DNA of 55,234 nt from Hyphomicrobiales bacterium (GTDB taxonomy: Bacteria; Pseudomonadota; Alphaproteobacteria; Rhizobiales; Beijerinckiaceae), in NCBI GenBank assembly GCA_947455455.1, contig CANGOE010000010.1, forward strand, positions 1 to 55,234. Direction: 5' to 3'. The position numbers and the translations under genes are program-made. Positions 4,170 to 55,234 of this stretch are shown one piece after another. Below the pieces are notes generated by a model. The model had not been told where the DNA came from, did no database searches, and saw only the letters and a program-made list of their open reading frames with translations. Within the stretch, counting starts at the first letter, position 1. Each line of letters starts with the position of its first letter.

Positions 4170-4251
4170 ACCCGCTCCCCCATTCCGCAAGACCCGTCCA
4201 GACAAGCACCGGTCGGGCTTGTGGAACCTTTGGTCCAAATTTATTTTTCTT

Positions 4252-4280
4252 ATTATTGACTGACCGGTCGGTTTATGCAA
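4252..4280 (-). promoter_or_regulatory. Predicted sigma70-type promoter of paaN-liv unit
   Basis: Read leftward, TTGCAT (4280-4275) and AATAAT (4257-4252) are separated by exactly 17 bases. The 14-bp operator-like dyad falls within the spacer, where a bound repressor would block RNA polymerase. On the other strand TTGACT (4256-4261) could be the -35 of the paaG promoter, but its -10 is not clear (AACACT at 4279-4284 is the 17-base candidate). Predicted by eye only. Confidence 0.5.
4259..4272. promoter_or_regulatory. Operator-like dyad ACTGACCGGTCGGT in divergent paaN/paaG control region
   Basis: This is a nearly perfect inverted repeat centred on CCGG (ACTGACC against ACCGACC, one mismatch). 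The same motif, ACCGACCGGTTAGT, stands at 15591-15604 in front of the paaJ operon. Its position overlaps the promoters on both strands. The likely ligand is the TetR-family regulator encoded at 7020-7619, since TetR proteins bind short dyads of this kind. Which regulator binds is inference. Confidence 0.6.
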
Positions 4281-4327
4281 CACTTTTTTTCAAGAAGCAC
4301 AAGACGATCCGAACGAGGGAGACAGAC

Positions 4328-5137
4328 ATGCAAGGACAGGCTGAGGCTGGGCACGGCCCCGTTTTGGTGCAACTGGACCATGGCGTTTTGCATTTGACGC
4401 TCAACCGTCCCGACAAGCTCAACTCGTTCAATCAGGAGATGCATCTGGCCTTGCGGGCCGGCTTCGAACGCGCCCATGCCGATCCCGCCGTCCGCGCCGT
4501 GTTGCTGACGGGTGCGGGCCGCGGCTTTTGCGCGGGGCAGGATCTGGGCGACCGCGACCCGAGCAAGCAGGATGGCCCGCCCGATCTCGGCCAGACACTC
4601 GAAAACTTCTACAATCCGCTGGTGCGGCTGATCCGCAGTCTGCCCAAGCCGGTCATCTGCGCGGTCAACGGCGTTGCGGCCGGCGCGGGAGCCAATGTGG
4701 CGCTGGCTTGCGATATTGTGATTGCCGCCAAATCGGCGCGCTTCATCCAGGCCTTTTCCAAGATCGGGCTGATTCCGGATGCGGGCGGCTCGTGGTCACT
4801 GCCGCGTATTCTGGGCGAGCCGCGTGCCAAGGCGCTGGCCCTGACCGCCGAGCCGCTAGATGCCGAAACCGCCGCCCAATGGGGGCTGATCTGGAAATGG
4901 GTCGGTGACGACCATCTGCAGGAGGAAGCCACCGCTTTGGCCCAACGCCTTGCAGACGGACCGACACAGGCTCTGGGCATGACCAAGCTGGCGATACAGG
5001 ATGCCGCCAGCCAGCCGCTCGATGCCCAACTGGATCTGGAACGTGACCTGCAACGCCGCGCCGGCCGCAGTGCCGATTACGCCGAAGGAGTCTCAGCCTT
5101 CCTGCAAAAACGCAAACCGGAGTTCAAAGGCCAATGA
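4328..5137 (+). CDS. paaG: Enoyl-CoA hydratase/isomerase PaaG (ring-1,2-epoxyphenylacetyl-CoA isomerase)
   Basis: This is a 269-residue crotonase-fold enzyme. The oxyanion-hole stretch GAGRGFCAGQDL is at about 62-73, NGVAAGAGANVAL is near 114-126, and LIPDAGG places the catalytic acid at about D151. The C-terminal AGRSADYAEGVSAFLQKRKPEF matches PaaG. It isomerises the epoxide of phenylacetyl-CoA to oxepin-CoA and later shifts a double bond in beta-oxidation. ATG at 4328 is preferred over the upstream frame start at 4256: GAGGGAG lies just upstream, and the longer version would begin inside the operator. It is first in the rightward unit and overlaps paaI by ATGA. PaaF is also a crotonase, but the sequence fits PaaG better. 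Confidence 0.94.
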   Translation: MQGQAEAGHGPVLVQLDHGVLHLTLNRPDKLNSFNQEMHLALRAGFERAHADPAVRAVLLTGAGRGFCAGQDLGDRDPSKQDGPPDLGQTLENFYNPLVRLIRSLPKPVICAVNGVAAGAGANVALACDIVIAAKSARFIQAFSKIGLIPDAGGSWSLPRILGEPRAKALALTAEPLDAETAAQWGLIWKWVGDDHLQEEATALAQRLADGPTQALGMTKLAIQDAASQPLDAQLDLERDLQRRAGRSADYAEGVSAFLQKRKPEFKGQ

Positions 5138-5583
5138 GCACACCATCCGCCGCCAGCCTTGATCCGCAACAATTGGCGCAAGCCTGTGCCGATGCCATGT
5201 GGACGGGTGATCACACCACACAGCATTTCGGCATGATGCTGGACCGGATCGATGCCGGACAGGCCACCATGTCGATGACCGTGCAGGACTGGATGACCAA
5301 TGGCCATGCCACCTGCCATGGCGGCTGTATTTTCACACTGGCCGATTCCGCCTTCGCCTTTGCCTGCAACAGCTACAACCAGAATGCCGTGGCACAGATG
5401 GCCTCGATCACCTTTATCAGCCCCGCTTTTGTCGGCGACAGACTGAGCGCCTCGGCGCGCGAAATCTCGCGCAAAGGCCGTGGCGGCATTTATGACATCA
5501 CAGTTACCAACCAGAACGGCGAGCACATCGCCGAATTCCGCGGACATTCGCGCACCATCAAAGGCACGCATCTGCCCGATTAA
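5134..5583 (+). CDS. paaI: Phenylacetyl-CoA thioesterase PaaI
   Basis: This 149-residue hotdog-fold thioesterase carries the motif HGGCIFTLADSAFAF (about 62-76), with the conserved Asp at about 71 in the PaaI/4HBT style. It hydrolyses hydroxylated or dead-end phenylacetyl-CoA thioesters and so rescues CoA when the ring-opening steps stall. Its start overlaps the paaG stop by 4 bases, so translation is coupled. The next gene, paaK, follows after 48 bases. Length and position within paa are typical. Confidence 0.93.
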   Translation: MSTPSAASLDPQQLAQACADAMWTGDHTTQHFGMMLDRIDAGQATMSMTVQDWMTNGHATCHGGCIFTLADSAFAFACNSYNQNAVAQMASITFISPAFVGDRLSASAREISRKGRGGIYDITVTNQNGEHIAEFRGHSRTIKGTHLPD

Positions 5584-42133: not shown

Positions 42134-43057
42134 CTATCTGGGCCCGCCCATCCAAAGGCTCAAATCGCGTTGTAATAATTTTTCAAGCAACAAGATGTCA
42201 TTGGAGAATTCCTGACGCATTTCATCTTGCAATTGAGCTGAAAGGACTGCTTTTTTGTCGCGCTTGGCGACAAATAACTGCCGCAAACGGGGTTGAATAT
42301 CCAACCGCTCGATATGCAAAAGCCGTTTTACAAAACCAACAATCTTCATCAACCAAGGGTTCGGGATAGAAATCTCTTGATACAACCATCTCAATTTGAC
42401 TTGTTGTCCCTCGTTGATCCTCGGAAATACACTCCGGCCATCGTCGGGAACATTTAAAAAATCAAGCACACTGCGATAAACGTCACCGGTGTGAGAGATA
42501 AAATCATCGAAAACGATCAGTTTCAATTGATTTGCCGGTATCAGTTTCATGGCCCGCTCAAGTTGCTCACCCATTCTGGCAACATCGGCATAGATCAGCA
42601 TAGACGCATGTTTGCAGTGTTTCGGGATCTGCTTTCCCAGCTTGCGCTGGCTTTGGAGATGCCAGGCTTTCTCGAAACTCGAGCAATTTTCCTGAAGCGA
42701 TTCTATGTATTTTTCATAAAGCGCTTGAACCATATCCCGTGGATTTCGGATCATCACTATAAATTTGGCATTGGGATCAAATGCCAAAATCTGCTCGATG
42801 GCTTCCTTCGAGTAGAGATACCAGACAGAGGCCTCGCCAACTGCCGCGTATTCACCGCCCTCCAAGTGGCCGAAGCAGGTTTTGAGATAATCGCTTTCAT
42901 GCTCGACACACCGCAAATTAGGCAAATCGGACGCAAAGAAGTGTGGTTCCTTGGGGATCGAAAAGCCAATCCGGGGGTGTGACTTCAAATATTCACTTAA
43001 TGCCGTTGTGCCGCAACGCGGGGCGCCGATAATGAAAAAATTGGGTTTCGGGATCAT
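42134..43057 (-). CDS. PAPS-dependent sulfotransferase
   Basis: This 307-residue protein starts MIPKPNFFIIGAPRCGTTAL; IIGAPRCGTTALSEYL (9-24) is the 5'-phosphosulfate loop. IVMIRNPRDMVQALYEKY (near 104-121) is the 3'-phosphate binding segment. It transfers sulfate from PAPS to a sugar or lipid acceptor. It ends the operon cysD-cysNC-flippase-sulfotransferase, so PAPS supply and use are encoded together. Acceptor unknown; a cytoplasmic glycan precursor is most likely. Confidence 0.9.
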   Translation of the reverse strand: MIPKPNFFIIGAPRCGTTALSEYLKSHPRIGFSIPKEPHFFASDLPNLRCVEHESDYLKTCFGHLEGGEYAAVGEASVWYLYSKEAIEQILAFDPNAKFIVMIRNPRDMVQALYEKYIESLQENCSSFEKAWHLQSQRKLGKQIPKHCKHASMLIYADVARMGEQLERAMKLIPANQLKLIVFDDFISHTGDVYRSVLDFLNVPDDGRSVFPRINEGQQVKLRWLYQEISIPNPWLMKIVGFVKRLLHIERLDIQPRLRQLFVAKRDKKAVLSAQLQDEMRQEFSNDILLLEKLLQRDLSLWMGGPR

Positions 43058-43077
43058 TGGCGCACCTCAAGAAACGT

Positions 43078-44364
43078 TCAGACGATGGCAATGCGAATGG
43101 CCAGTCGCTTGCGCACCAACCGCACCAAGCCCATATTCCAGAGCATTAACGAGATCGCTGAGGCCATTGCGGCGCCGATTTCCTGCCATAAAGGGACCAG
43201 CACAAGACACAATACGATATTCAGCAATGTCGAAAGCATCAACGTCTTCATACTATCGCGTTCAAACCCCGTCATATTCAGTATGAGCGCGACTGATCCG
43301 CATCCGACATTCACCAACTGCCCCAAGGACAGAATGATCAGCGCGTTATAGCTCCCGATATAAGACGTTCCGTACAATAACTCCAATATAGAGTGGCCAA
43401 AAATAACCAATATTATAATGAATAGACCTGATAATAAAAAAGTGATCCGGGCTGATTTTTTACCCAGATCTTCAATTCCTGCTAAATCTTTCACTGCATA
43501 TAATGCTACAAACCGTGGACCAATGAGCATATTGATTAAAAGCAACGGCAATGAAGCCATTAAAGAAATGCTTTCAGAGACTTTGTAAATCCCGAGTGAA
43601 TAATCGCTTGTCATCAAGCCGAGCATTAAAGAAGGAATATAGTTATTCAACGATCCTGCCAATTTCAAAAACAGAAATGGCAAAAAAACAACCAGCCATT
43701 TCCTATCGGGTTTGGATTTGAACAATTCTATTAAGTTGAAATGACCTTTTGATAGATTGGATAATATTTTTACATTTTTCCTAATCATCAATATAAATGA
43801 AATAAATATCGACAATAAAGAACCAATAATTGCTGTTTCTATTGTCAGATATTGATTGACCCACAATATTAAAATAATAGATAGATAAATGAATGGTGTC
43901 AGCACCCACTCCAGTGATTGGGAATATATTGCTTGTCCGAACCCCTGCAGGACTGATGAATAGATCACCGTATATGAAATAAGCGGGATAAACAGCACAC
44001 TTAAAATTAATGAAATTTTTCTATTTTCAACATCTATATAATAAAAAGACCAAAAGATAATTGCTGAAATAGCCAGTATGGAAATAACAGCAGTCCATAT
44101 ATTTGCCTTGGACAGCATAGAAGACAATGAATACCAGTCATGTGTCTGCTTGCATTGCGCCGCCTCCCGCACCATCAAAGGAGCCATCCCGCTCATGGCC
44201 GGCAAAGCACAGAGCCCGACGATCGACATTGCAAAGGCAAGGGCTCCATAGGAATCCGGCCCAAGTGTACGCGATACCAGAACCGACGTCACAGTCTGAA
44301 CCAGCAACAAGAAAAATCTCTGCCCGCCAAGAACGGACATGTCTCTGGAAAACCGAGGCACCAT
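43078..44364 (-). CDS. Polysaccharide (PST/Wzx-type) flippase
   Basis: This 428-residue protein has about 12-14 hydrophobic helices and the family start MVPRFSRDMSVLGGQRFFLL. The MATE/PST fold is suggested by LVSRTLGPDSYGALAFAMSI. It flips lipid-linked glycan units across the inner membrane. ATG at 44364 has GGAAT upstream; a TTG 11 codons earlier (44397) is less likely. Coding sequence is AT-rich (20/60 and 13/60 G or C in 43681-43740 and 43741-43800), unlike most neighbours, suggesting transfer. Confidence 0.88.
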   Translation of the reverse strand: MVPRFSRDMSVLGGQRFFLLLVQTVTSVLVSRTLGPDSYGALAFAMSIVGLCALPAMSGMAPLMVREAAQCKQTHDWYSLSSMLSKANIWTAVISILAISAIIFWSFYYIDVENRKISLILSVLFIPLISYTVIYSSVLQGFGQAIYSQSLEWVLTPFIYLSIILILWVNQYLTIETAIIGSLLSIFISFILMIRKNVKILSNLSKGHFNLIELFKSKPDRKWLVVFLPFLFLKLAGSLNNYIPSLMLGLMTSDYSLGIYKVSESISLMASLPLLLINMLIGPRFVALYAVKDLAGIEDLGKKSARITFLLSGLFIIILVIFGHSILELLYGTSYIGSYNALIILSLGQLVNVGCGSVALILNMTGFERDSMKTLMLSTLLNIVLCLVLVPLWQEIGAAMASAISLMLWNMGLVRLVRKRLAIRIAIV

Positions 44365-44486
44365 AGAAATTCCAAGCGTATGAGAGGGACCAGTCAAAAT
44401 TGATTGATCCCTTATAGTCTATTTCGATAGCCGGTATCCCATGCCGCTGAAACAGGAACAGCCATGAGACCAACCCTTTCCGCCTT

Positions 44487-46388
44487 TTACAGCTTGGCCG
44501 CCAGCAACCGGACAGTTTCGGAATAATCCCCAAGAGTCCCATCAACGATCAAATCGGGGCTTTTCGGAGCCTCGTAGGGGCTGCTTATTCCGGTCATATT
44601 GGGCAGTTGTCCGGTCCTTGCCTTTTTGTAAAGCCCTTTGGGGTCGCGTTCCTCGCATAGAGCCAGCGGCGTATCGACAAAGACCTCTAAGAAATGGTCC
44701 GGCCCGATCAATTCGCGGGCCATTTGCCGTTCGGCACGGAACGGGCTGATGAACGCCGTGATTACGATCAAGCCGGCATCCATCATCAAACGGGCAACCT
44801 CGGTCACCCTGCGGATGTTTTCCACACGATCAGCCTCTGTAAATCCCAGATCCCTGTTAATGCCCTGCCGGATGTTATCGCCATCAAGAATATAGGTGCG
44901 CTTGCCCTGTGCGTAGAGTTCCTTTTCAAGGGCATTGGCGAGTGTCGATTTTCCGGACCCCGAGAGGCCGGTGAGCCAGACCACTTTACCGGCATGGCCG
45001 TTCATCCTTTCGCGATCGGGCCTGCTGATGCCCAAGGCCTGCCGATGCACATTTTGTGCGCGCCTGAGATTATGGCGGATCAGCCCTGCCGCTACGGTCA
45101 CATGGCTTTGTTTATCCACCAGAATAAAGGCCCCCAATACGTTTGATTGCGCATAGGGAGCGAAGACCACTGGTTTGCCCAGCGCCAGATTGGCAACGGC
45201 GATATCGTTGAGACCCAGTTGACGGCATGTCTCATGGGCCTGGCTGTTGACATTGATCCTGTATTTGAGGCTCGTCAGGCTTGCCCCTGCCCATTGATTG
45301 GCCAGCTTGATGTCGTAATTCCGGCCGATCAGCCCCGCCTCGTCATGTAACCAGATGATCGTCGCCTCGAACTGGTCGGTCATTTCCAAAGGTTGGTTGG
45401 CCCGTCCGATCACATCGCCACGGGATGCATCGACCTCCCTATCCAGCACCAGCGTCACAGCATCCCGGGCTGTCGCAACAGCCAAGTCGCCATCGGAAGT
45501 GACGATGCGGGCAATTTTGGCGGTTTGACCGGAGGCTGTCACACGAACCTCGTCGCCGACAGCAATATGCCCGCTTGCCAAAGTCCCTGAAACGCCCCGA
45601 AATTCGGCATTCGGACGATTGACCCACTGCACCGGAAAGACCGTTTGCGTGTCAACAGGATGCTCGATCGCCAGCGTTTCCAGACAGCCCAACAGGGTCG
45701 GGCCGACATACCACGGCGTGCGGGCCGAGCGGGTTGTCACATTGTCACCCTTCAGGGCGGACAAAGGGATGGCAACAACTGTCTTGAACCCGAATGCATC
45801 GAAAGATGATTTGAATTCGGCATGGATGGCATCAAAGATAGTCCTGTCATAATTGACAAGATCGATCTTGTTGATGGCCAAAACCACATGCCTGATGCCC
45901 ATCAAGGATGCCAGAAAAGCATGGCGGCGGGTTTGTGCCAGAACGCCTTTGCGTGCATCGATCAGAATGATCGCCGCATCGGCCGTGGAGGCACCAGTCA
46001 CCATATTGCGTGTATATTGCTCATGGCCGGGTGTATCGGCGACAATGAATTTGCGGTTTGGCGTGGCAAAAAACCGATAAGCCACATCAATGGTGATCCC
46101 CTGCTCGCGCTCGGCCGTCAGCCCGTCGACCAGCAATGCAAAATCGATTTCGTTGCCCTGCGTTCCATGACGTTTTGAATCGGCTTGCAGTGCATTGATC
46201 TGGTCATCGAATATTTGCTGTGTTTCCCACAAGAGCCGGCCGATCAGCGTGCTTTTGCCGTCATCGACACTGCCGCAGGTGATGAAGCGCAGTAAATCCA
46301 TATTGGCTTGATGCTTGATCCAGTCAGCAACCGAATGGGTTCTTGCAACGGTCTTCGGGGAAGTCCGGGAGATTTTGGAGCGGGCCAT
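44487..46388 (-). CDS. cysNC: CysNC: sulfate adenylyltransferase large subunit fused to APS kinase
   Basis: This is a 633-residue fusion. The N-terminal GTPase/CysN part (about 1-440) has [24 protein letters not shown] and NKIDL. The C-terminal CysC part (about 450-633) has P-loop GLSGSGKST and [19 protein letters not shown]. With CysD it makes APS and then PAPS, the sulfate donor. The same fusion is called NodQ in rhizobia. The ATG overlaps the cysD stop by one base. Presence beside two sulfotransferases points to sulfation rather than assimilation. Confidence 0.95.
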
Positions 46389-47857
46389 CAGAAATACCCC
46401 TCCTGCTTTTTCTTTTCCATCGAGCCGGAACTGTCGGTGTCGATCTTGCGGCCCTGACGCTCGGATTGGCGGGCATTGATCGTTTCAAGCAAAATATCTT
46501 CGAGGGTTTCGGCCTCGGATTCGACAGCACCTGTCAGCGGGTAACAACCGAGGGTTCTAAAGCGCACTTTACGGATCTGGATCGTCTCGCCATCAGAAAT
46601 CTGACAGCGATCGTCATCAACCATCATGATCATGTCCGGGCGCATGATGACCGGTCTGGGTTTGGCAAAATAGAGCGGCACAACCGGTATCCCCTCTTGA
46701 TAGATATATTGCCAGATATCGAGCTCGGTCCAGTTGGACAGGGGAAACACCCGGATGCTTTCATCCGGTGCTTTACGCGTATTGTAGAGATTCCATAATT
46801 CCGGCCGCTGGTTTTTGGGGTCCCAACGATGCGAGCTGGTTCTGAAAGAAAAGACACGCTCCTTGGCACGGGACTTCTCCTCGTCGCGTCGTGCCCCGCC
46901 GAAAACCACATCAAAACGATATTTGTCGAGCGCCTGCTTCAGGCCTTCGGTTTTGGTGATGTCGGTGTGGAGTGACGAGCCGTGATCGAAAGGATTGATG
47001 TTCTTCTCGATCGCTTCGGGATTGATATGGACCAGCAATTCCATGCCTGTTTCCCGCACCATCGCATCGCGGAACCGATACATGTCCTGAAATTTCCATG
47101 CTGTATCGACATGCAACAGCGGGAACGGCGGGGGTGACGGATAAAAAGCCTTGCGGGCCAGATGGAGCATCACGCCGCTGTCCTTGCCGACGGAATAGAG
47201 CATGACAGGGTTTTGGGCCTCGGCGACAGCCTCGCGCAAGATATGGATGCTCTCGGCCTCAAGCCGTTTGAGATGCGGCGAAGGACTTGTTTGCAAACCG
47301 GCCGGTTTCGATAGGCTTGCAATCACGGGCATGGAAGATTGATAGGCTTGCGGACACATATGCAGGGTGTCGGACCCGGCCAGCTTGTCCAACATCGTGA
47401 CAAGTTCACCATGTGCAAACACCGCAATGGCGTTGCCAATATGGCTTTGCAACAGATGCAATGCGGACTGCACCGTATCAGATTGCCGATCAGGCAATGG
47501 TATCCAGAAGCGAGCTTCCCTGGCATCATTGGCAAAAAGGCACGGTGCCTGATCAGGCAAGCGGCCCATTTGCACGAAGAGAACCCTGTCCCGCCTGCGA
47601 CGCGCCTGCTCGATGGCCCAATCCAGCACCAGGGCAATCGGCGGGCGACCCAGTTCGTCGCGCAGAGTGTCCGGTGTCAAAATATCGGGTAAAAAACCCA
47701 AACTGGCAATCTTGCGTTCGGCCGTACGCTTGGTGTCGGCCAACCCTTTGGCTTGCAGATCGGCAAAAGCCAGAGTCAGATCCCAAACCTTGCAATCCGA
47801 CAGCCGCTGTCCTTCAAATGTCGCAAAAACAGGAAGATGGTTTGTCGCGATTTTCAT
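46388..47857 (-). CDS. cysD: Sulfate adenylyltransferase small subunit CysD with large N-terminal extension
   Basis: This is a 489-residue protein, whereas CysD is normally about 300. The CysD part begins near residue 193 ([16 protein letters not shown]) and has the PP-loop [16 protein letters not shown] and [14 protein letters not shown], ending with the usual [15 protein letters not shown]. Residues 1-190 form an unrecognised region with [35 protein letters not shown] and [18 protein letters not shown]. The start MKIATN at 47857 has GAGCGGA upstream. An internal ATG (about residue 176, 47332) has no ribosome site, so the long form is probably made. The role of the extension is unknown. Confidence 0.88.
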
Positions 47858-48109
47858 ATTAATCCGCTCAATCAACACATAGAGATCCATTTAAAGCAAA
47901 TTTATAATTTATTCAATAAAAATGCATATTGCGACATTTTTAAAATACATCCCCCTATATTCACAGTTTACAATGCAATCTATCCCGCTCCGACCTGTGT
48001 TTTAGCATCGGAAAAGCAAATGCTGTTTGATCGGGCGCTTCACATGGATGCGCTCATCTGTCATTCAGAGCACTTAAACATCCAATAGCATGACAATCGG
48101 AACCAAGAC
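47858..48109. other. Divergent AT-rich intergenic region between cysD and the GT2 gene
   Basis: These 252 bases must carry promoters for both leftward cysD-cysNC and the rightward glycosyltransferase. The stretch 47890-47945 is mostly A and T. No convincing consensus pair or dyad was seen. Confidence 0.3.
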
Positions 48110-49057
48110 ATGCAATCCGACCATCTCTATCGACAGCTGCGAGTGGCCCTTGTGATACCCTGTTACAACGAGGCTGGAACAATCGGAGCCGTGATTGACG
48201 GTTTTCATTCGGCCATGCCGGGCATTGGCATCACGGTGTTCGATAATGGCTCAATCGACAACACGGCAGACGTCGCACGCGCTAAGGGTGTGGATGTCGT
48301 CCATGTCGCTGTCAAAGGCAAAGGCAATGTCGTCAGGCGAATGTTTGCTGACATTGATGCCGATGTCTATGTCATGGTTGATGGCGATCTGACCTATGAT
48401 CCTGCCAGCATGAAAAGCATGATCGACAAATTGATCGATGATAAGCTGGATATGGTCGTTGGATGCCGTCAAACACCCTCTGAAACCATCAGGACTGCAT
48501 ATAGACGCGGCCATCAATGGGGCAACCGCGTCCTGACCGAGAGTGTTTGCCGGATCTTCGGTGGTTCATTCATGGATATGCTGTCGGGCTATCGGGTCTT
48601 GTCGCGCCGGTTTGTCAAATCATTCCCTGTTCTGTCTGACGGCTTCGGTATCGAAACCGAACTCACGATCCATGCCCTGGAACTGAAGATGCCGGTCGGG
48701 GAAGTCATCACACCCTATGGCGCGCGTCCGGAAGGTTCGGTTAGTAAATTATCGACCTATCGGGACGGCTGGGGGATCCTGATGACCATCTTGCGTCTGT
48801 ATATGCTGGAGCGCCCACTGCAATTCTATGGCCTGATAGGCGCGGTTCTTGCGCTCACCTCCATCGGCTTGTCGTTACCGATCCTGATCGAATTCCTGAA
48901 TTCGGGGCTGGTTCCCCGACTGCCGACGGCGGTGCTATGTGCTTCGATGATGTTGCTTGCGGCCATGTCACTGCAATGCGGTATGATCCTTGACAGCGTG
49001 GCCCGTGGACGAAAGGAAACCAAGCGCCTGTTCTACCTGTTCGCGCCGAAAAAGTAG
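48110..49057 (+). CDS. GT2-family glycosyltransferase (polyprenyl-phosphate type) with C-terminal membrane helices
   Basis: This 315-residue protein has a GT-A fold start VALVIPCYNEAGTIGAVI, then VMVDGDLTYDP (DXD-type) near 95-105 and MLSGYRVLSRRF. Two hydrophobic helices follow at about 240-300. It resembles dolichyl/undecaprenyl-phosphate sugar synthases and so probably loads a sugar on a lipid carrier. First of three rightward genes in the cluster. Confidence 0.87.
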   Translation: MQSDHLYRQLRVALVIPCYNEAGTIGAVIDGFHSAMPGIGITVFDNGSIDNTADVARAKGVDVVHVAVKGKGNVVRRMFADIDADVYVMVDGDLTYDPASMKSMIDKLIDDKLDMVVGCRQTPSETIRTAYRRGHQWGNRVLTESVCRIFGGSFMDMLSGYRVLSRRFVKSFPVLSDGFGIETELTIHALELKMPVGEVITPYGARPEGSVSKLSTYRDGWGILMTILRLYMLERPLQFYGLIGAVLALTSIGLSLPILIEFLNSGLVPRLPTAVLCASMMLLAAMSLQCGMILDSVARGRKETKRLFYLFAPKK

Positions 49058-49177
49058 CACTGCCATGGCCATGTCTGGGATCCAAGCGTTCTGCCGGCGG
49101 AGGATGAAAAATCCTGCCAATCCGGCGAGGCTTGATCGCAGTGTCATCAGCCCCGACGAGACAATGCCTTAGCAATC

Positions 49178-50704
49178 ATGATTGGAAGCCTACTCAAAAA
49201 TCTGTTTCTATCGATCACCAGACCCAGAATCTGTGACTTTCTGGTCGTGGTGATTACCCTTGCCGCCTTGATCAATCTGGTTTCGAGCGGGCGGGGTTTT
49301 GTATTCTGGCCGGATTCAATCGGCTATTTTGGCCCCTTGGCTGATTGGCAGACCGGGCAGGGTTTCACCGCATGGTATGGGCGGGGCTTTGTGTACCCAT
49401 TGTTTCTGACTGGCCTGATTCAGGACAGCACGCATTATCTTCGCGTGCTTGACGCACAGATGCTGTTATTGGCTGGCACCTATCTATTCGCGGGATGGGT
49501 GGTGTGGCGTTGCGGGCATAGGCTGGATCGTTTGCCGGCTTCCAGAGCGATACCGGCCATGGGCCTATTGATGCTCGGACTGATCAGTTTCGATTTCAAC
49601 GCCGCCCAACTCGCCTTGATGCATTCTGCACTGCCCGAAATCATGTTTATTGCGGTATTGGCCCTGCAACTTGTCTTGGTGTGGAAGACACTGCACGCGA
49701 CCGAAAAGCGGATGCAATATGCCGGACTGGCGGGTGTCACTTTCATCGGCTTCATGCTGATCCTGATCAAGCCACACTATCTTTTGACCGCATTGGCGCT
49801 TCCGCCTGTTTTGGCGTTGATGTTGCGACAAAAATTAGCAGGCAAACCGCTAGTCTTAGCCTTGCTGGTCGGTTGTCTATCCGCCACACCCTTTCACCTG
49901 TTCGATCTGCATCAGAAAGCATCATATGATCGGCTTGCCGCAAAAACCTTCGGACCCAGAACCCTCTTCTGCAACAATCTCAATGTCCTTGATCTGGGAT
50001 TTGAACGAGGACTGGAAGACAGACTGAACATCCGGCCGCAGATTGAACAAATCCTCAAAGACGGACCACAAGGTTGGGATGCATTGGGCTTTAATGGTGA
50101 TGCCTGTATGTATGGCGAACTAGGCCGCACGATCAGAAACCAATACAAGGATGATCCCGATAAAGAGGCCAATTATTATCTCTCAACCACGGCTTGGGCC
50201 GCTCTGATCGCGCCGGATATGGTTTTAAATCGGTTGATGCGCCAGTTCAGACTGGCGCTGTCCTCTCCTTTCTTTCGCCATCGCATCCATATCAGCGACT
50301 GCCACCCGTTGGAGGCAGGCCTGAAACGAAGCGCCTTCTTCGAGAGACTGCAAACCGAATGCCTCAGGCACAAGGACGACCGGATCTCCTATTACGATTT
50401 CAAACCTCTCTTGTTCAACTGGATCTACCCCCTGCTTCTCGGCCTCGGCATGTGCAAGTTGGTCTTGATTGGGTTTAAAAGAGGCACAAAAAACAGCTCC
50501 ACCCCCTCACCTTGCGGGAATTTGGCGGCGGCAACATTGCTTGCCATTTTCTCGTTTGTTTTGTTTGTCGGGCTTGTACATTCCTTTGATGTCTTCCGCT
50601 ATATGATGATGATTTCACCTCTCATACTGGTATCATTCTGTTGCATCACGGTATGGCTGTTCACGACAGGGAGCCGAGATTCTGAATTTGTTGACAGTGA
50701 TTAA
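49178..50704 (+). CDS. Polytopic membrane protein, possible GT-C-type glycosyltransferase
   Basis: This is a 508-residue protein with roughly nine hydrophobic helices in the first 250 residues and again at the C-terminus, and a soluble part around 240-400. The first loop has FVFWPDSIGYFGPLADW, with an acidic residue placed as in GT-C enzymes that use lipid-phosphate sugars. It would fit as acceptor of the sugar made by the preceding GT2. No family was recognised with certainty. Confidence 0.6.
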   Translation: MIGSLLKNLFLSITRPRICDFLVVVITLAALINLVSSGRGFVFWPDSIGYFGPLADWQTGQGFTAWYGRGFVYPLFLTGLIQDSTHYLRVLDAQMLLLAGTYLFAGWVVWRCGHRLDRLPASRAIPAMGLLMLGLISFDFNAAQLALMHSALPEIMFIAVLALQLVLVWKTLHATEKRMQYAGLAGVTFIGFMLILIKPHYLLTALALPPVLALMLRQKLAGKPLVLALLVGCLSATPFHLFDLHQKASYDRLAAKTFGPRTLFCNNLNVLDLGFERGLEDRLNIRPQIEQILKDGPQGWDALGFNGDACMYGELGRTIRNQYKDDPDKEANYYLSTTAWAALIAPDMVLNRLMRQFRLALSSPFFRHRIHISDCHPLEAGLKRSAFFERLQTECLRHKDDRISYYDFKPLLFNWIYPLLLGLGMCKLVLIGFKRGTKNSSTPSPCGNLAAATLLAIFSFVLFVGLVHSFDVFRYMMMISPLILVSFCCITVWLFTTGSRDSEFVDSD

Positions 50705-50829
50705 TGGCAATATTATAGAAATGCATGCTTATTCGGATTAATAGTTGTTAAAGTTTTAAAACTGAACTGTGGTTTTAACTTTAAAAACGATTTAATTCTT
50801 GCACATTCAATTCATTCGCGGACTTTAAA

Positions 50830-51552
50830 TTGATTTTGATCAGTCAACCCAATTTACTGTTTTTAAAACCCAGAAAGGTTGCGGGAACATCTTTTGAAAT
50901 TGCACTTTCAAATTTCACTGATGACACCTCGATCATCACTCCTATTACCGACACGGATGAAGCCATCCGCGCAAGCCTGAGTTTTCGGGGGCCTCAAAAT
51001 TATCACATGTCCATTGTCGAGGTCATGAAAACATGCAATTTGGGGATCTGGAAAGAACTCATCCAAAATCGCAAGCCATTGAAATTCTGGAACCATATCC
51101 CTGCGACACTGGTCAAGGAGCGATTGGGACATAGCCAGTGGTCAAGCGCCTTCAAGATTTCGATCGTCCGCAACCCTTATGACATGGCCATTTCACGATA
51201 TTTTTTCACAACCCAGACAGTCGATTATTCGCCCCAGGATTTTGAAAATTTTTGTGTCTCCCAAGGAACAGCTTTCAAACAAAATCTGGAACAATATTTT
51301 ATCGGACATGAAGAAATCATCGATTTTTATATCAAGTATGAATCCATCAATGACGACATTTTAAAACTAGAAAATCAATTCAATGAATTAAAAGGGCTCT
51401 CGGACATTTTTTCCCGGATAAAAGCCAAAGGGCAATTTCGGCCGCCCAATGCCATAGCCGGTGAAATGTTTGCGCAGGCACCTTTGGCGAAAAAAATCAT
51501 TACCGAGACATGCCGTTTTGAAATTGAAAAATTCGGCTATGAAAGCCCCTGA
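50830..51552 (+). CDS. Second sulfotransferase-family protein
   Basis: This 240-residue protein has LFLKPRKVAGTSFEIAL (about 10-26) as the 5'-phosphosulfate loop, in the form KVAGTS, and ISIVRNPYDMAISRYFF near 115-131 for the 3'-phosphate. The start is TTG at 50830 (or 50836); no ATG precedes the P-loop. Low GC. It differs from the sulfotransferase at 42134, so two acceptor positions may be sulfated. Confidence 0.75.
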   Translation: MILISQPNLLFLKPRKVAGTSFEIALSNFTDDTSIITPITDTDEAIRASLSFRGPQNYHMSIVEVMKTCNLGIWKELIQNRKPLKFWNHIPATLVKERLGHSQWSSAFKISIVRNPYDMAISRYFFTTQTVDYSPQDFENFCVSQGTAFKQNLEQYFIGHEEIIDFYIKYESINDDILKLENQFNELKGLSDIFSRIKAKGQFRPPNAIAGEMFAQAPLAKKIITETCRFEIEKFGYESP

Positions 51553-51559
51553 TTGAATC

Positions 51560-51619
51560 GGGCCGAATGAATTGGAAGAGAACCAACAAGCCCTTTTGGT
51601 TCATTCTTACCCTTGGCCC
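51560..51619. terminator. Possible bidirectional terminator stem between convergent genes
   Basis: AACCAA (51581-51586) pairs with TTGGTT (51596-51601). Alternatively, GAATGAA (51565-51571) pairs with TTCATTC (51600-51606), with outer arms GGGCC (51560-51564) and GGCCC (51615-51619). It lies between the sulfotransferase stop and the converging GT4 stop. Stem lengths are moderate. Confidence 0.4.
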
Positions 51620-51635
51620 TTAACCCGACAATGCT

Positions 51636-52772
51636 TCATGCTGTTCCATTGACTGCAGATATAATCAGCCTGTGCCATTGATCAAAAACCAGATCCGGCG
51701 CAAAGCGGTCGCAGACCTCGGGCGCTCGCTGTGCAAGCTGTACCCGCTTCAGGGGATCTTCCATCAGACTTTTCATCGCACCGGCCAGTGCATTCACATC
51801 GTTCGGAGGCACCAACAGTCCGTCTATCCCATGACGAATAATATCGCGGGGCCCACTGGGACAGTCAAAGCTGATGACAGGAAGCCCGCAAGCCATTGCT
51901 TCGGCCAATGCCAAGCCGAAACCCTCGTAGAGAGAACTGAATACAAAGAGATCACCCGCATGAAGCCAGTCGAATGGCGGGGAGACAACGCCTGCCATGA
52001 AAACCCTGTCTGCCAGTGCAAGGTGTTCGATGAGCTTGAACAAGTTAGCCAACTCCGGCCCCTCGCCGATGATCACCAATGTCCAATCGGGAAAGTCATC
52101 TGCAACCTGTCTGAATGCGTGAAGCAACAAGTCAAAACCCTTTTCAGGCGCCAATCGCCCCATGGCCATGACTGTGAACTGTCCGAATTGTTCAGGTTTT
52201 ACAATGTCCTTGCACATGATGCGAGGAACCGGATTCGGTATGCGGACACCCCGCCACAAAGTTTGGCGATGCGTGACTTCTTTCTCCAGCGCGCTGGAAA
52301 GCACAACCACACTGTGAGCATATGGGTATAGCAATTGGCGCATCAGGCGCCATCGCAGGCTGACGGGATGGTAACGCCAGTCGGTTTGTTCCGACACGAT
52401 CACAGGGATGCCTGTGCCGATGAGAGCCTGCAAGACCTGTACATTCACCGAATCTATAAACGAAATCACCACATCCGGTGCGCTTTCCGAAAGCGTGTGG
52501 CGCAAGACTTTTATCGAGCGGAATTGTCCCGCCAGATCGAACCAGCGATAGGTCGAACCGATCGTTTGCGAAGCCTTGATGCGGGGGACCTCTGGAGGTA
52601 TGTCATAGAAATCTGCCGTCGCATCATGCAGTGTCATCACTGTCGGCTTATGTCCCGCTTGGGCAAGTGCACCGGCCAGCCATAAAACAATGCGTTCGGT
52701 TCCCCCACTGCCAAGCGAGCCTGTCACCAACGTCACGCGTAGGCCATTTTTCATCACAAGACTGTCAAGCAT
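51636..52772 (-). CDS. GT4-family glycosyltransferase
   Basis: This 378-residue GT-B enzyme has an N-terminal GSLGSGGTERIVLWLAGAL and the C-terminal GT4 segment SSLYEGFGLALAEAMACGLPVI, with the E-x7-E pair and MAMGRLAPEKGFDLLL before it. It adds a sugar from a nucleotide donor to the growing repeat unit. The ATG at 52772 has no clear ribosome site; ATG at 52754 is an alternative. It lies 103 bases after the asparagine-synthase gene, same strand. Confidence 0.9.
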   Translation of the reverse strand: MLDSLVMKNGLRVTLVTGSLGSGGTERIVLWLAGALAQAGHKPTVMTLHDATADFYDIPPEVPRIKASQTIGSTYRWFDLAGQFRSIKVLRHTLSESAPDVVISFIDSVNVQVLQALIGTGIPVIVSEQTDWRYHPVSLRWRLMRQLLYPYAHSVVVLSSALEKEVTHRQTLWRGVRIPNPVPRIMCKDIVKPEQFGQFTVMAMGRLAPEKGFDLLLHAFRQVADDFPDWTLVIIGEGPELANLFKLIEHLALADRVFMAGVVSPPFDWLHAGDLFVFSSLYEGFGLALAEAMACGLPVISFDCPSGPRDIIRHGIDGLLVPPNDVNALAGAMKSLMEDPLKRVQLAQRAPEVCDRFAPDLVFDQWHRLIISAVNGTA

Positions 52773-52875
52773 GGGGAGGGTTCACTTCAATCGTTTCAAA
52801 GCATCCCGTACGGTATCCAATTCCCACAACGCGATTGATTTATCAGAATATCTGCCCTCATCCCATTAGAGATCT

Positions 52876-54891
52876 TCATTGATTATCTCCAAAGGCATGC
52901 CGAGGGGGTTCAATCGAGGCTGACTGGCTTTCCAGCCAGGATTGAAACATCAAAACGTTCCATAATTGGTACTGCCAGTTGCGCTTGCCGGAGAGATGTT
53001 CCTCCCATTTGGTGCGGATAGGTCCCACATGGAAGTAACCCTCGCGCTTCAATCTTTCTTCATCCAGCAAGGCTTCGGCCCAATCCCTCAACGGTCCGCG
53101 CAACCACGCAGCGATTGGCACGCCAAAGCCCATTTTAGGCCGCTCGATCAGTTCTTTGGGAACATATTTGTAGAGAACCTGCCGCAAAATCCATTTGCCG
53201 CTCCCATCCCGCAACTTCATGGATTGCGGGATACGCCATGCATATTCAACGACACGATGATCAAGAAACGGCATGCGGCTTTCCAGAGATGCACCCATCG
53301 AAGCCCTATCGACTTTCACCAGAATATCGTCAGGCAGATAAGACAGGCTATCCATTGCCATCATCCGCTGGACATCATCCAGCCCTGAAAGCGAGAATTC
53401 ATTGTCTTGCATCACGGTGAAAGGTTCTTGCCCTCCAATGACCACCTCAGCAGGATCTAGATGACTGATCAACCGGAAATAGAGATCGTCGATCCTTTGA
53501 AAATCCAGAATCTGCGCGCCCTTGTGGAGTTTGAGGCCTATATTTGTTTGATTAAAGGATTGGGGCAGAACATTCTCAAAGGGTCCGAGTATGAAATTCC
53601 ACACAGAAGGAGAAATAGAACGAATTATACTTGCTGCAAAGAGCCGAAGCACACGCGGCACTCGTGAAAGTTTGTTCCAAAGGCTTTGGGTGAAAATATA
53701 ACGATTATAGCCCGCAAACAATTCATCGCCTGCATCACCGGAAAGCGAAACGGTGACGTGGCGGCGCGCGAGTTCGGACACGAGGACTGTGGCGATTTGC
53801 GACGAGTCCGCAAAGGGCTCGCAATACAGCTTGGGCAATCGGGCGATGACATCCAGCACCTGATCCGGTGTGACATAGAGCTCCGTATGATCGGTTCCTA
53901 AATGGGCCGCAACTGCTTTGGCGTATCCGGCCTCGTCATAGCCTTGCTCACTGAACCCGATCGTAAAGGTTTTTATCGGACTGGCGGATTGGGATTGCAT
54001 CAGGGCTACGATGGCCGAGGAATCAATGCCACCGGACAAAAAAGCTCCCAGCGGGACGTCTGCCAACATTTGTTGCTTGACCGCAGATCGGAGCAAGCCT
54101 TCGAGCTCGTCTGCAATGTCCTCAGCCGAGCCCGTGAGGGGGGACCGATTGCCTGACACGGCAATCCCGGCCATCGACCAGTATGTCTCAACCTTAATCG
54201 TCTTGCTTGCCACAGAAAGTGTGAGCAATTGCCCCGGTTGTAGTTTGTGAATGCCTTGATAAATCGAATGTGGTGCGGGGATGTAATTGTGGCGCATGAA
54301 AAGTGCCAGAGCGTCGCGGTTGATATCCGCACGAAAGGATGGATGGACCCTCAGCGCTTTTAATTCCGACCCGAACAGAAAGCAGTCATTTTCGCCATCA
54401 CCCTGCCAGCCGTAATAGAGTGGCTTCTCACCCAGCCGATCCCGCCCCAATGTGAGACTCCGCTCATTTTTATCCCACACGGCAAATGCAAACATGCCTA
54501 TGCAACGCTCTATTGTGGCTTTGATGCCCCAAACAGCAAAGCCCATGAGCAGGGTTTCAGTGTCGGATGTCCCTTTCCATGACGGGCGGGGAAATGCATC
54601 ATAACGGGTGCTTTCAAGCTCTCCGCGCAGTGCGAGATGATTATAGATCTCACCATTGTAGACGAGCACAAACCGCCCGTCACAACTTGTCATAGGTTGG
54701 TGCCCGGCTGTCGAGAGGTCGATCACCGACAAGCGGCGATGGGCCAGCGCTACTCCGGCTTCGTCATCAATCCAGATGCCATCATCATCAGGCCCGCGAT
54801 GGGCAAGGGTATTGCCCATTCGCGATACAATGTCCTGCGCGAGTAGAGCGTTAAACCCGTTTAACTCTATAAAACCTGCCAGACCACACAT
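52876..54891 (-). CDS. asnB: Asparagine synthase-like glutamine amidotransferase (AsnB family)
   Basis: This 671-residue protein starts MCGLAGF, so Cys 2 is the glutaminase nucleophile; ATG at 54891 is therefore right, not the frame start at 54912. RGPDDDG is at 32-38. The synthetase half has the PP-loop SGGIDSS at 286-292. The family makes asparagine from aspartate and glutamine; many cluster-encoded copies instead amidate sugar acids of surface glycans. Its position at the edge of a polysaccharide cluster favours the latter, which is inference. Confidence 0.93.
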   Translation of the reverse strand: MCGLAGFIELNGFNALLAQDIVSRMGNTLAHRGPDDDGIWIDDEAGVALAHRRLSVIDLSTAGHQPMTSCDGRFVLVYNGEIYNHLALRGELESTRYDAFPRPSWKGTSDTETLLMGFAVWGIKATIERCIGMFAFAVWDKNERSLTLGRDRLGEKPLYYGWQGDGENDCFLFGSELKALRVHPSFRADINRDALALFMRHNYIPAPHSIYQGIHKLQPGQLLTLSVASKTIKVETYWSMAGIAVSGNRSPLTGSAEDIADELEGLLRSAVKQQMLADVPLGAFLSGGIDSSAIVALMQSQSASPIKTFTIGFSEQGYDEAGYAKAVAAHLGTDHTELYVTPDQVLDVIARLPKLYCEPFADSSQIATVLVSELARRHVTVSLSGDAGDELFAGYNRYIFTQSLWNKLSRVPRVLRLFAASIIRSISPSVWNFILGPFENVLPQSFNQTNIGLKLHKGAQILDFQRIDDLYFRLISHLDPAEVVIGGQEPFTVMQDNEFSLSGLDDVQRMMAMDSLSYLPDDILVKVDRASMGASLESRMPFLDHRVVEYAWRIPQSMKLRDGSGKWILRQVLYKYVPKELIERPKMGFGVPIAAWLRGPLRDWAEALLDEERLKREGYFHVGPIRTKWEEHLSGKRNWQYQLWNVLMFQSWLESQSASIEPPRHAFGDNQ

Positions 54892-54912
54892 TCTCTTATA
54901 AAACACCCACAC

Positions 54913-55234
54913 ATGATTTAAACATCTATTCTCATGTATAACATATTCAGAATTAATTATTCACTCTCCTTTTGGCGTGATCTCTTATGCAAAAATCTCA
55001 TATTTTCAACCTATATCAAATATTTTAAATAATATAAAATAGTATAGATATTAAAATATAATTATACTATAATAAATTTAGTAAAATTTCTATTAAAATT
55101 TATTTTATATAAATAATAATTCAAATTTTATAGCTGATTGAATTATTATTATATATTATAATTTTATTTATTTTTAAAAGTTTATAATTTCAAGAAAAAA
55201 TAAAATATTTTAGCAAAAAATATTTTTAAAATTA
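54913..55234. other. Extremely AT-rich non-coding stretch upstream of asnB
   Basis: No gene is recognisable. In 55021-55234 only about 15 of 214 bases are G or C by hand count. TTATAC at 54933-54938 on the minus strand might serve as a -10 for asnB. Sequence this AT-rich is a typical target for H-NS-like silencers (MucR/Ros or Lsr2-like in other groups), but no specific site is seen. Confidence 0.6.

Follow-up and report, generated by a model that had tools for sequence, protein, structure and literature searches.

An N-Terminal Domain Outside Named Families on a Sulfation-Associated CysD of Alpha-, Beta-, and Gammaproteobacteria

We describe a conserved protein domain, located ahead of the small subunit of ATP sulfurylase (CysD), that is not named in any of the collections searched (Pfam, NCBIfam, and PHROGs). 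Proteins with this extended architecture were found in Beta-, Gamma-, and Alphaproteobacteria, and their gene neighborhoods indicate that they are very probably CysD copies dedicated to sulfation. Few enzymes of sulfur metabolism are better known than CysD, and to our knowledge the role of a given copy, assimilation or sulfation, can usually not be read from its own sequence. The extra domain appears to mark the sulfation CysD across three bacterial classes and is absent from the examined copies beside cysH. It could serve as a simple marker for clusters making sulfated polysaccharides or metabolites and as an entry point for studying how cells direct APS into PAPS. Among the titles and abstract beginnings listed from an open-licence literature collection, none mentions such a CysD domain.

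The Extended cysD Gene and Its Neighbors

The analyzed stretch of DNA, hereafter the window, is 55,234 nucleotides long. Its features of interest are as follows.

46388..47857, minus strand: extended cysD, ATG at 47857, stop codon at 46388-46390, 489 residues
47863..47869, minus strand: putative ribosome site GAGCGGA, ending 5 bases before the ATG
47333..47800, minus strand: N-terminal domain, residues 20-175 (AlphaFold, 65-sequence conservation, purifying selection)
47714..47731, minus strand: conserved block K-R-T-A-E-R, residues 43-48, R48 invariant in the 65-sequence alignment
47504..47533, minus strand: conserved block A-N-D-A-R-x-x-R-x-W, residues 109-118, in the turn that joins strands 2 and 3 (65-sequence alignment)
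47279..47332, minus strand: linker, residues 176-193, variable in length in the alignment, mean pLDDT 55 at residues 181-190
46391..47278, minus strand: CysD core (ATP sulfurylase small subunit), residues 194-489, TIGR02039 match, PP-loop intact
44487..46388, minus strand: CysNC, a fusion of the CysN GTPase and the APS kinase CysC (PF00009, PF22594, PF01583)
43078..44397, minus strand: polysaccharide flippase (Polysacc_synt, PF01943)
42134..43057, minus strand: sulfotransferase (PF13469, 62.6 bits; PF00685, 37.4 bits)
48110..49057, plus strand: glycosyltransferase family 2, divergent neighbor (PF00535)
50830..51552, plus strand: weak sulfotransferase match (PF00685, 20.7 bits, under the cut-off of 22)

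Judged by its sequence, the gene probably encodes the small subunit of ATP sulfurylase. The NCBIfam model for CysD (TIGR02039) is matched over its whole length (positions 1-294 of 294) by residues 196-489, with 490.6 bits against a cut-off of 396.6, and PF01507 matches residues 216-443. The PP-loop SxGKDS is intact at residues 222-227, and S222, G224, K225, D226, and S227 are invariant in 65 sequences. In all this, as in its adjoining CysN partner, the protein is like the rest of its family. The architecture differs and the core does not: family members measure about 300 residues and contain no other domain, whereas some 190 additional residues precede the core here, as the original prediction had it. 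A long N-terminal part before a PAPS-reductase-like domain is likewise known from the NCBIfam entries PRK13795, PRK08576, and PRK08557, but their profiles match the core common to both (starting no earlier than window residue 175) and not the N-terminal domain.

The start of the frame also agrees with that prediction, which placed the GAGCGGA site before it and saw no internal start with a ribosome site. At the junction of domain and core, the window offers ATG, GTG, and TTG codons at residues 176, 178, and 188, none of them preceded by a Shine-Dalgarno-like 4-mer. Across the 65 aligned rows (window included), an ATG occurs in the junction of 15, and any junction start codon follows such a 4-mer in three. 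An internal start of the CysD frame is therefore unlikely on sequence grounds. Upstream, an alternative in-frame ATG at 47890 would yield 500 residues.

On the other side of the gene, the CysNC ATG shares one base with the cysD stop codon (TGATG). The sulfotransferase lies downstream of CysNC and the flippase on the same strand, and CysQ is not adjacent to cysD in the window. The host genome encodes a separate assimilatory set comprising a NirA/CysI-like reductase, CysH, a plain CysD, a kinase-less CysN, and CysG; its CysH also exceeds the APS-reductase cut-off. Throughout, "CysI-like" denotes the NirA/sulfite-reductase family without any model above its cut-off. The name TauE/SafE-like was given by eye, and an NCBIfam match to it is absent.

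A Predicted Folded Domain under Purifying Selection

With 65 sequences as input, AlphaFold predicts one compact domain at residues 21-170, with block-mean pLDDT values of 93-98 that fall to 75 at residues 171-180. Three helices (27-36, 43-53, and 75-87) are followed by three strands (91-99, 105-111, and 116-120), a helix (126-140), and a further strand (144-148), and the domain closes with a short helix (152-157) and a strand (165-167). Conservation starts near residue 19-25, leaving residues 1-18 as a variable tail, and the domain proper thus takes up about 155 of the 190 extra residues. D111, R113, and W118 of the second conserved block are invariant in the 65 sequences, and the near-invariant charged residues of the domain are K43, R44, R48, D67, E68, R86, R89, D111, R113, and R116. 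For the ten pairs with the smallest dS, dN/dS of the domain is 0.10-0.27.

The extension cannot be put down to a chance open frame, since it is predicted to fold, is common to relatives, and is under purifying selection; its description from the letters alone as protein-like has held up. An ATG does occur at residue 176, and a reader might suppose that translation begins there and that the extension is untranslated or an annotation artefact. That supposition is hardly credible: the residue-176 ATG is neither conserved nor equipped with a Shine-Dalgarno-like site, selection acts on the extension, its predicted fold is conserved, and 65 aligned proteins share the identical architecture.

Relation to Known Families and Folds

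Profile searches brought up no convincing family, in line with the initial view of a new domain of unrecognized fold. Residues 1-192 have zero Pfam or NCBIfam matches at E <= 10. When the N-terminal domains of all 65 members were scanned, Pfam (limit 0.1) returned four families in one member each, none recurrent (best 0.0012), NCBIfam (limit 0.01) likewise four families in one member each (best 0.0025), and PHROGs zero matches at 0.01. The helical half (profile positions 35-92) gave a tentative profile match to HP0242-like knotted helical proteins, with E 0.021 for HP0242 and 5e-5 for a tandem chimera.

In the predicted model, residues 88-172 resemble half of an RNase H/integrase fold with the acids missing. 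The order strand-strand-strand-helix-strand may correspond to that of RNase H-like proteins (integrases and the RNase H of reverse transcriptases), but only a half domain is present, without the catalytic acids and without a significant sequence match. Run against the PDB with the domain alone, Foldseek gave reverse-transcriptase chains as its best hits (E 2.8e-3), and VIA-align superposed residues 90-170 on integrase cores with Z 7.2 and an rmsd of 2.1 A over 77 residues, a Z below 8 that may reflect only a common arrangement. In a viral fold library, the domain alone found none below E 9e-3; the whole model retrieved chiefly PP-loop proteins such as PAPS reductases.

These likenesses raise the question of whether the domain could be the remnant of a transposase or integrase (a helix-turn-helix joined to the initial half of an RNase H-like core), either binding DNA, with the enzyme regulating its own divergent promoter, or taken over simply as a scaffold. 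To the two structural matches one may add a profile alignment, made without guidance, to IS3-like transposases (25 sequences from relatives), in which, by our reading, strand 1 lies at most about two residues off the structural register and the first helices coincide with the helix-turn-helix. Yet this profile match is not significant (P 0.11), as equally high scores came from 15 of 200 shuffles by column and 12 of 200 by block. The consensus of strand 1 (LVLFAQL) and strand 4 (IAVFPHG) contains no acid, although the mapping of positions is approximate; rve (PF00665) is absent from the 65 N-terminal domains at E <= 0.1, and the lack of a PHROGs match also speaks against such an origin. We regard this origin as very unlikely. 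The fuller account strikes us as a long shot too: a transposase/integrase piece with an inactive half of the core would have been fused once to a sulfate-activating enzyme and then kept, in three proteobacterial classes, as a working component of a PAPS synthase devoted to sulfation alone.

Distribution and Origin

Extended CysD is scattered. The extension is absent from the 59 other nearest genomes, but the domain search found 60 extended loci in other bacteria, which meets the original suggestion to look for the same domain fused to CysD elsewhere and answers the concern that relatives might lack it altogether. At the order level, 43 of 297 genomes had a match at E <= 0.1, and only the host genome and one other (G219) stand out; the remaining matches, which are short and reach 6e-4 at best, were set aside as chance. 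The class-level search counts 6 positives among 385 genomes, after a seventh (G488, E 6.9e-4) was rejected because its frame lies opposite an apparent adenylate-cyclase gene. In a recheck covering loci L006-L012 and L090, the 65-sequence profile found no match. No convincing relative came from plasmids or phages (best E 3, 6, and 0.7 among the matches listed), and of 94 pattern-matching stretches in viral contigs none encodes a relative.

The extended loci were gathered by searches with the domain alone, not with the CysD core, and in 99 of 99 frames of at least 150 residues (duplicates included) the domain is in frame with a CysD core. A domain standing alone beside sulfotransferases, which had been envisaged as well, was never seen among them. 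In a tree of the core (129 rows), 70 extended and 59 plain sequences are split at a single branch (SH-aLRT 98). Because the extended cores all lie on one side of it, one fusion event would suffice for all extended CysD.

A comparison of two extended loci reveals a natural chimera. Loci L032 and L041 are 98-100% identical in the core and 88-97% in CysNC DNA, but 68-77% in N-terminal domain DNA; the break falls near the domain junction, and the domain stays with its upstream neighbors. It follows that no tight co-adaptation ties the domain to one CysNC. Two seemingly longer upstream fusions, L031 (746 residues; L030, a copy of it, was left out of the counts) and L082 (766 residues), were rejected, as the extra open frame runs opposite other genes, namely CysQ in L031 and a permease-like gene in L082.

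Genomic Context of Extended and Plain CysD

Extended CysD also differs from plain CysD in its neighborhood, where it is linked to sulfation and not to cysH or cysI. Among 72 extended loci, of which at least two are double-counted (L033/L229 and L071/L228 are very likely the same places), 71 have CysN within 4 kb, fused to CysC in 67; none has CysH within 8 kb or a CysI-like protein, and 32 have CysQ within 3 kb, often divergently encoded beside cysD. The 30 plain loci include 29 with CysN (9 fused), 19 with CysH, 17 with a CysI-like protein, and none with CysQ. Restricting both sets to loci with 8 kb on both sides, and dropping the doubles, leaves 39 extended loci (CysN 39, fused 37, CysH 0, CysI-like 0, CysQ 18) and 26 plain ones (CysN 25, fused 9, CysH 15, CysI-like 14, CysQ 0).

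The exceptions can be described individually. Five extended loci lack a fused CysNC: contig ends truncate L060 and L078, the CysN/CysNC frame is in pieces in L026 and L227, and the first copy in L067 has a short broken CysN. In L027, L029, and L046, CysNC lies 0.9-2.7 kb from cysD and is not adjacent. All nine plain loci with a fused CysNC come from Pseudomonas/Stutzerimonas genomes. Among the partners looked for, CysN is the sole one found downstream in 64 of 64 relatives. A survey of CysD and CysH (40 entries representing 38 genomes, as G1113 equals G1291 and G857 equals G1292) found CysH in 0 of 10 genomes whose sole CysD is extended and in all five of the tested genomes that carry both forms.

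Sulfotransferases were counted among open reading frames picked by motif and then confirmed or not by Pfam. This procedure replaced an iterated profile that, because these proteins are so diverse, recovered only 14. In the extended loci, 32 picked open reading frames include 13 matches to Sulfotransfer_3, 10 to Sulfotransfer_1, and 3 to Sulfotransfer_2 (overlapping counts), versus a family match in 0 of 13 picks from plain loci, with about twice as much DNA searched in the extended set (1.16 vs 0.55 Mb) and a picking rule not identical between the two. The extended picks had numbered 39; four of more than 900 residues were left out, and of the remaining 35, five were removed (two CysD, one CysNC, a frame in L050 overlapping CysD, and L228 as the double of L071) and two frames added (L040, 14485-15483; L068, 5544-6425), whereas the 13 plain picks were kept unpruned.

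Possible Function of the Domain

The original idea of a new domain tied to sulfation is supported by its predicted fold, its conservation, its single origin, and its genomic surroundings. In our view the domain probably acts in docking or regulation and not in catalysis. The best explanation as a whole, which we hold with about even confidence, is a PAPS-making complex of extended CysD and CysNC with a docking or regulatory domain, and we tentatively propose the kinase domain of CysNC as the docking target. In such a complex, the N-terminal domain would contact the APS kinase end of CysNC through its conserved KRTxER and NDARxxRxW faces; APS leaving CysD would be captured and phosphorylated, and the resulting PAPS would serve the sulfotransferases of the surface-polysaccharide cluster, not cysteine synthesis. 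Counting against this explanation are the L032/L041 chimera and the adjacency of CysQ, seen in only 32 of 72 extended loci and not in the window.

The domain might instead, in line with one of the two original suggestions, tether CysD-CysNC to an outside sulfotransferase, glycosyltransferase, or membrane assembly, delivering PAPS at the site of use. Sulfotransferases and polysaccharide genes are indeed nearby, the modeled linker looks flexible, and the L032/L041 chimera exchanges core and CysNC while its domain stays with the upstream neighbors. We nonetheless judge a tether rather unlikely, as a conserved domain with a docking surface common to sulfotransferases of three Pfam families is hard to see and CysN is the one constant downstream partner. 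A similarly small likelihood attaches to the other original suggestion, tuning, in the form of a domain that senses APS, PAPS, or PAP and allosterically adjusts the activity of ATP sulfurylase. Several of the near-invariant charged residues could bind a phosphorylated nucleotide, and the PAP-removing CysQ is often the divergent neighbor; against it, the domain itself shows no convincing match to known families.

In Mycobacterium tuberculosis, CysD and a CysN-CysC fusion feed PAPS to sulfotransferases, and one complex is described as the branch point for reduction and sulfation (PMC4373884). The gene pair described here is alike in placing CysD beside a CysN-CysC fusion and unlike it in that two sets appear to divide the work in most genomes examined, with the sulfation set bearing the extra domain.

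Comparison with other pairs bears on what the domain is needed for. Rhizobia have a CysD-CysNC pair, NodP-NodQ, devoted to the sulfation of an exported molecule, and we know of no such N-terminal extension in NodP. Together with the plain CysD that accompany a fused CysNC (9 of 30), this indicates that PAPS synthesis can proceed without the domain. Nor can the domain serve only to shield APS from CysH, since the ten CysH-less genomes keep it.

The extended CysD and its locus

The CysD of the window (hereafter extended CysD) indeed carries about 190 extra N-terminal residues, as the original prediction held from the sequence alone, and its ATG is preceded by the putative ribosome site (GAGCGGA) named there.

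46388-47857, minus strand: extended CysD, 489 residues, ATG at 47857

The whole TIGR02039 (CysD) model spans residues 196-489 (490.6 bits); at E <= 10, neither Pfam nor NCBIfam has a match to residues 1-192. We distinguish the N-domain (approximately residues 20-175), a linker (176-193), and the core (194-489). The gene for CysNC, a fusion of CysN with the adenosine phosphosulfate (APS) kinase CysC, comes next after cysD with a one-base overlap (TGATG), followed by a flippase and then a sulfotransferase, and glycosyltransferases lie on the opposite side of cysD. Also present are a probable membrane protein of 508 residues (49178-50704), which adjoins a glycosyltransferase and has no Pfam/NCBIfam match, and, within the polysaccharide cluster, an asparagine-synthase-like protein (52876-54912; GATase and Asn_synthase).

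This polysaccharide/sulfation cluster (42134-55234) has a G+C content of 0.495 versus 0.588 in 1-41926, four genomes of the same genus have no CysD by TIGR02039, and the nearest named relatives of the core are Aromatoleum and Achromobacter (Betaproteobacteria). The cluster was probably acquired horizontally, as an island. CysD-CysNC complexes supplying sulfotransferases are already known (PMC4373884). What appears to be new is the N-domain on CysD, for which Pfam, NCBIfam, and PHROGs gave no match common to several members, and none of the titles and abstract beginnings covered by our literature search describes such a domain.

Structure, conservation, and fold resemblance

The extension is a real domain. 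The structure prediction called for at the outset yielded a confident fold for residues 21-170, with a mean pLDDT of 93-98 per ten residues for the domain (AlphaFold, 65 sequences) and 88-97 in the full-length model (pTM 0.82), and the linker residues 181-190 average 55. Predicted helices (27-36, 43-53, and 75-87) precede three strands (91-99, 105-111, and 116-120), and the C-terminal end comprises a helix (126-140), a strand (144-148), a short helix, and a last strand (165-167). W25, R48, D111, R113, and W118 are invariant in the alignment of 65, and K43, R44, T45, E47, D67, E68, R86, R89, Q96, N110, R116, and K142 are among the nearly invariant residues. Of 62 pairs that passed our dN/dS filter, the ten with the lowest dS gave 0.10-0.27 for the N-domain and 0.02-0.09 for the core; N-domain values reach 0.55 at larger distances near saturation (among the 40 pairs listed). 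Judging from these ratios, the N-domain is translated and under selection, less tightly than the core.

In the model, residues 88-172 resemble RNase H-like domains in their strand-strand-strand-helix-strand order. Comparison with such domains gave a VIA Z of 7.2 (rmsd 2.1 Å, 77 residues), where a Z under 8 may reflect a common arrangement only, and the best Foldseek E for the N-domain was 2.8e-3. The counterparts of the strands bearing the catalytic acids in integrases carry none. When the domain profile is compared with IS3-like transposases, strand 1 and the initial helices fall almost in register, but P is 0.11 and 15/200 shuffles scored as well. We report the predicted likeness as a resemblance; exaptation from a transposase would be a bold reading only.

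Distribution and putative single origin

A search of other genomes for the same domain fused to CysD, as suggested at the outset, found it. Two short patterns, both from the N-domain alone, located 60 loci among 84,980 species (one genome per species). Judged by their titles, most belong to Burkholderiales and other Betaproteobacteria or to Pseudomonas and its relatives, with a few from Alphaproteobacteria. All 99 frames with the N-domain (at least 150 residues, duplicates included) hold a CysD core. The N-domain is uncommon, given its low counts in whole-genome samples: 1/60 nearest genomes (the own genome, from which the window comes), 2/297 in the order (own and G219, at better than E 1e-5), 6/385 in the class (one chance match removed), 3/398 in the phylum, and 9/250 in the order of another genome, G857. 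G219 and Rhizobium sp. CF122 (locus L076) encode the same protein, of which the duplicate was dropped, and this places the genome of the window in the order of Rhizobium.

Extended CysD appears to have arisen by one fusion. In a quick, unrooted tree of 129 different cores, all 70 extended ones fall on one side of a single branch versus 59 plain ones (SH-aLRT 98). The window core is one of 30 extended rows that form a starred set, and L038, a locus of an uncultured proteobacterium, comes closest to it at 88% identity.

Genomic context of extended and plain CysD

We compared 72 extended loci (at least two doubled) with 30 plain loci, all from genomes also holding an extended copy (L124, the own-genome assimilatory locus, and 29 others). 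As many extended loci are short, we recounted only loci with 8 kb on both sides, doubles dropped, and the contrast stands.

Genes near extended and plain cysD
Gene; extended (n=72); plain (n=30); extended, 8-kb subset (n=39); plain, 8-kb subset (n=26)
CysN within 4 kb; 71; 29; 39; 25
CysN fused to CysC; 67; 9; 37; 9
CysH within 8 kb; 0; 19; 0; 15
CysI-like; 0; 17; 0; 14
CysQ within 3 kb; 32; 0; 18; 0

The nine plain loci with fused CysNC all belong to Pseudomonas or Stutzerimonas genomes. Five extended loci lack it: in two, a contig end truncates the locus, in two others the frame is fragmented, and the fifth is a broken copy. ORFs with a sulfotransferase-like motif matched Sulfotransfer_3 (13/32), _1 (10/32), and _2 (3/32; overlapping counts) in extended loci and no Sulfotransfer family in plain loci (0/13), the picking being not fully symmetrical between the two sets. 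The CysQ of extended locus L040 exceeds the TIGR01331 cut-off. The gene after the divergent cysQ is often permease-like (L024, L027, L040, and others); its product looks TauE/SafE-like by eye, matches nothing in NCBIfam, and may transport sulfate or sulfonate for the unit. L067 holds a second extended CysD (3472-5372) that adjoins a sugar-nucleotide gene, with its CysN cut to 157 residues; it looks like a decaying duplicate.

Division of labor within genomes

The own genome encodes a separate assimilatory set (NirA/CysI-like reductase, CysH, plain CysD, CysN without kinase, and CysG), in which CysH scores above cut-off with both NF002537 and the APS reductase model TIGR02055. A CysH that acts on APS can do without a kinase, in keeping with a division of labor between the two sets. 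The family match of the kinase-less CysN (L124:4355-5974) ends near residue 437 of 539, and the C-terminal rest is membrane-like by eye.

Among 38 genomes with extended CysD, 28 have a further CysD and ten do not. The (P)APS reductase model NF002537 found no reductase above its cut-off in these ten, the sole matches being CysD itself, and found one in all five tested genomes with both kinds (four of the 28 and the own genome). Sat-type ATP sulfurylase (PF01747) occurs in 2/15 genomes, G1193 and G1227, both among the extended-only ten. In the other eight, no sulfate-activating enzyme was found besides extended CysD, and CysH is undetected; on this comparative evidence, the simplest explanation is that the CysD product is intended for PAPS use.

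Possible role of the N-domain

The N-domain cannot be needed for the chemistry, because plain CysD with CysNC exists (9/30 plain loci). By its genomic company, it is tied to CysNC and sulfation. We propose that it would be a non-catalytic docking or regulatory module of the CysD-CysNC complex, which would favor APS capture by the kinase.

A pair of extended loci, L032 and L041 (9947-13300 in each), from Pseudomonas seleniipraecipitans and Stutzerimonas urumqiensis, bears on this proposal. Their CysD cores are 98-100% identical and their CysNC DNA 88-97% (250-base blocks), whereas the N-domain DNA is only 68-77% identical and the upstream stretch 76-82%. The pair is a natural chimera, formed by recombination of modules, which stands against a tight co-adaptation of N-domain and CysNC and leaves room for an N-domain partner outside the complex. 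The break in identity lies near L032:10540, within about 70 bases of the domain end, and the chimera suggests that the N-domain is exchangeable at the linker.
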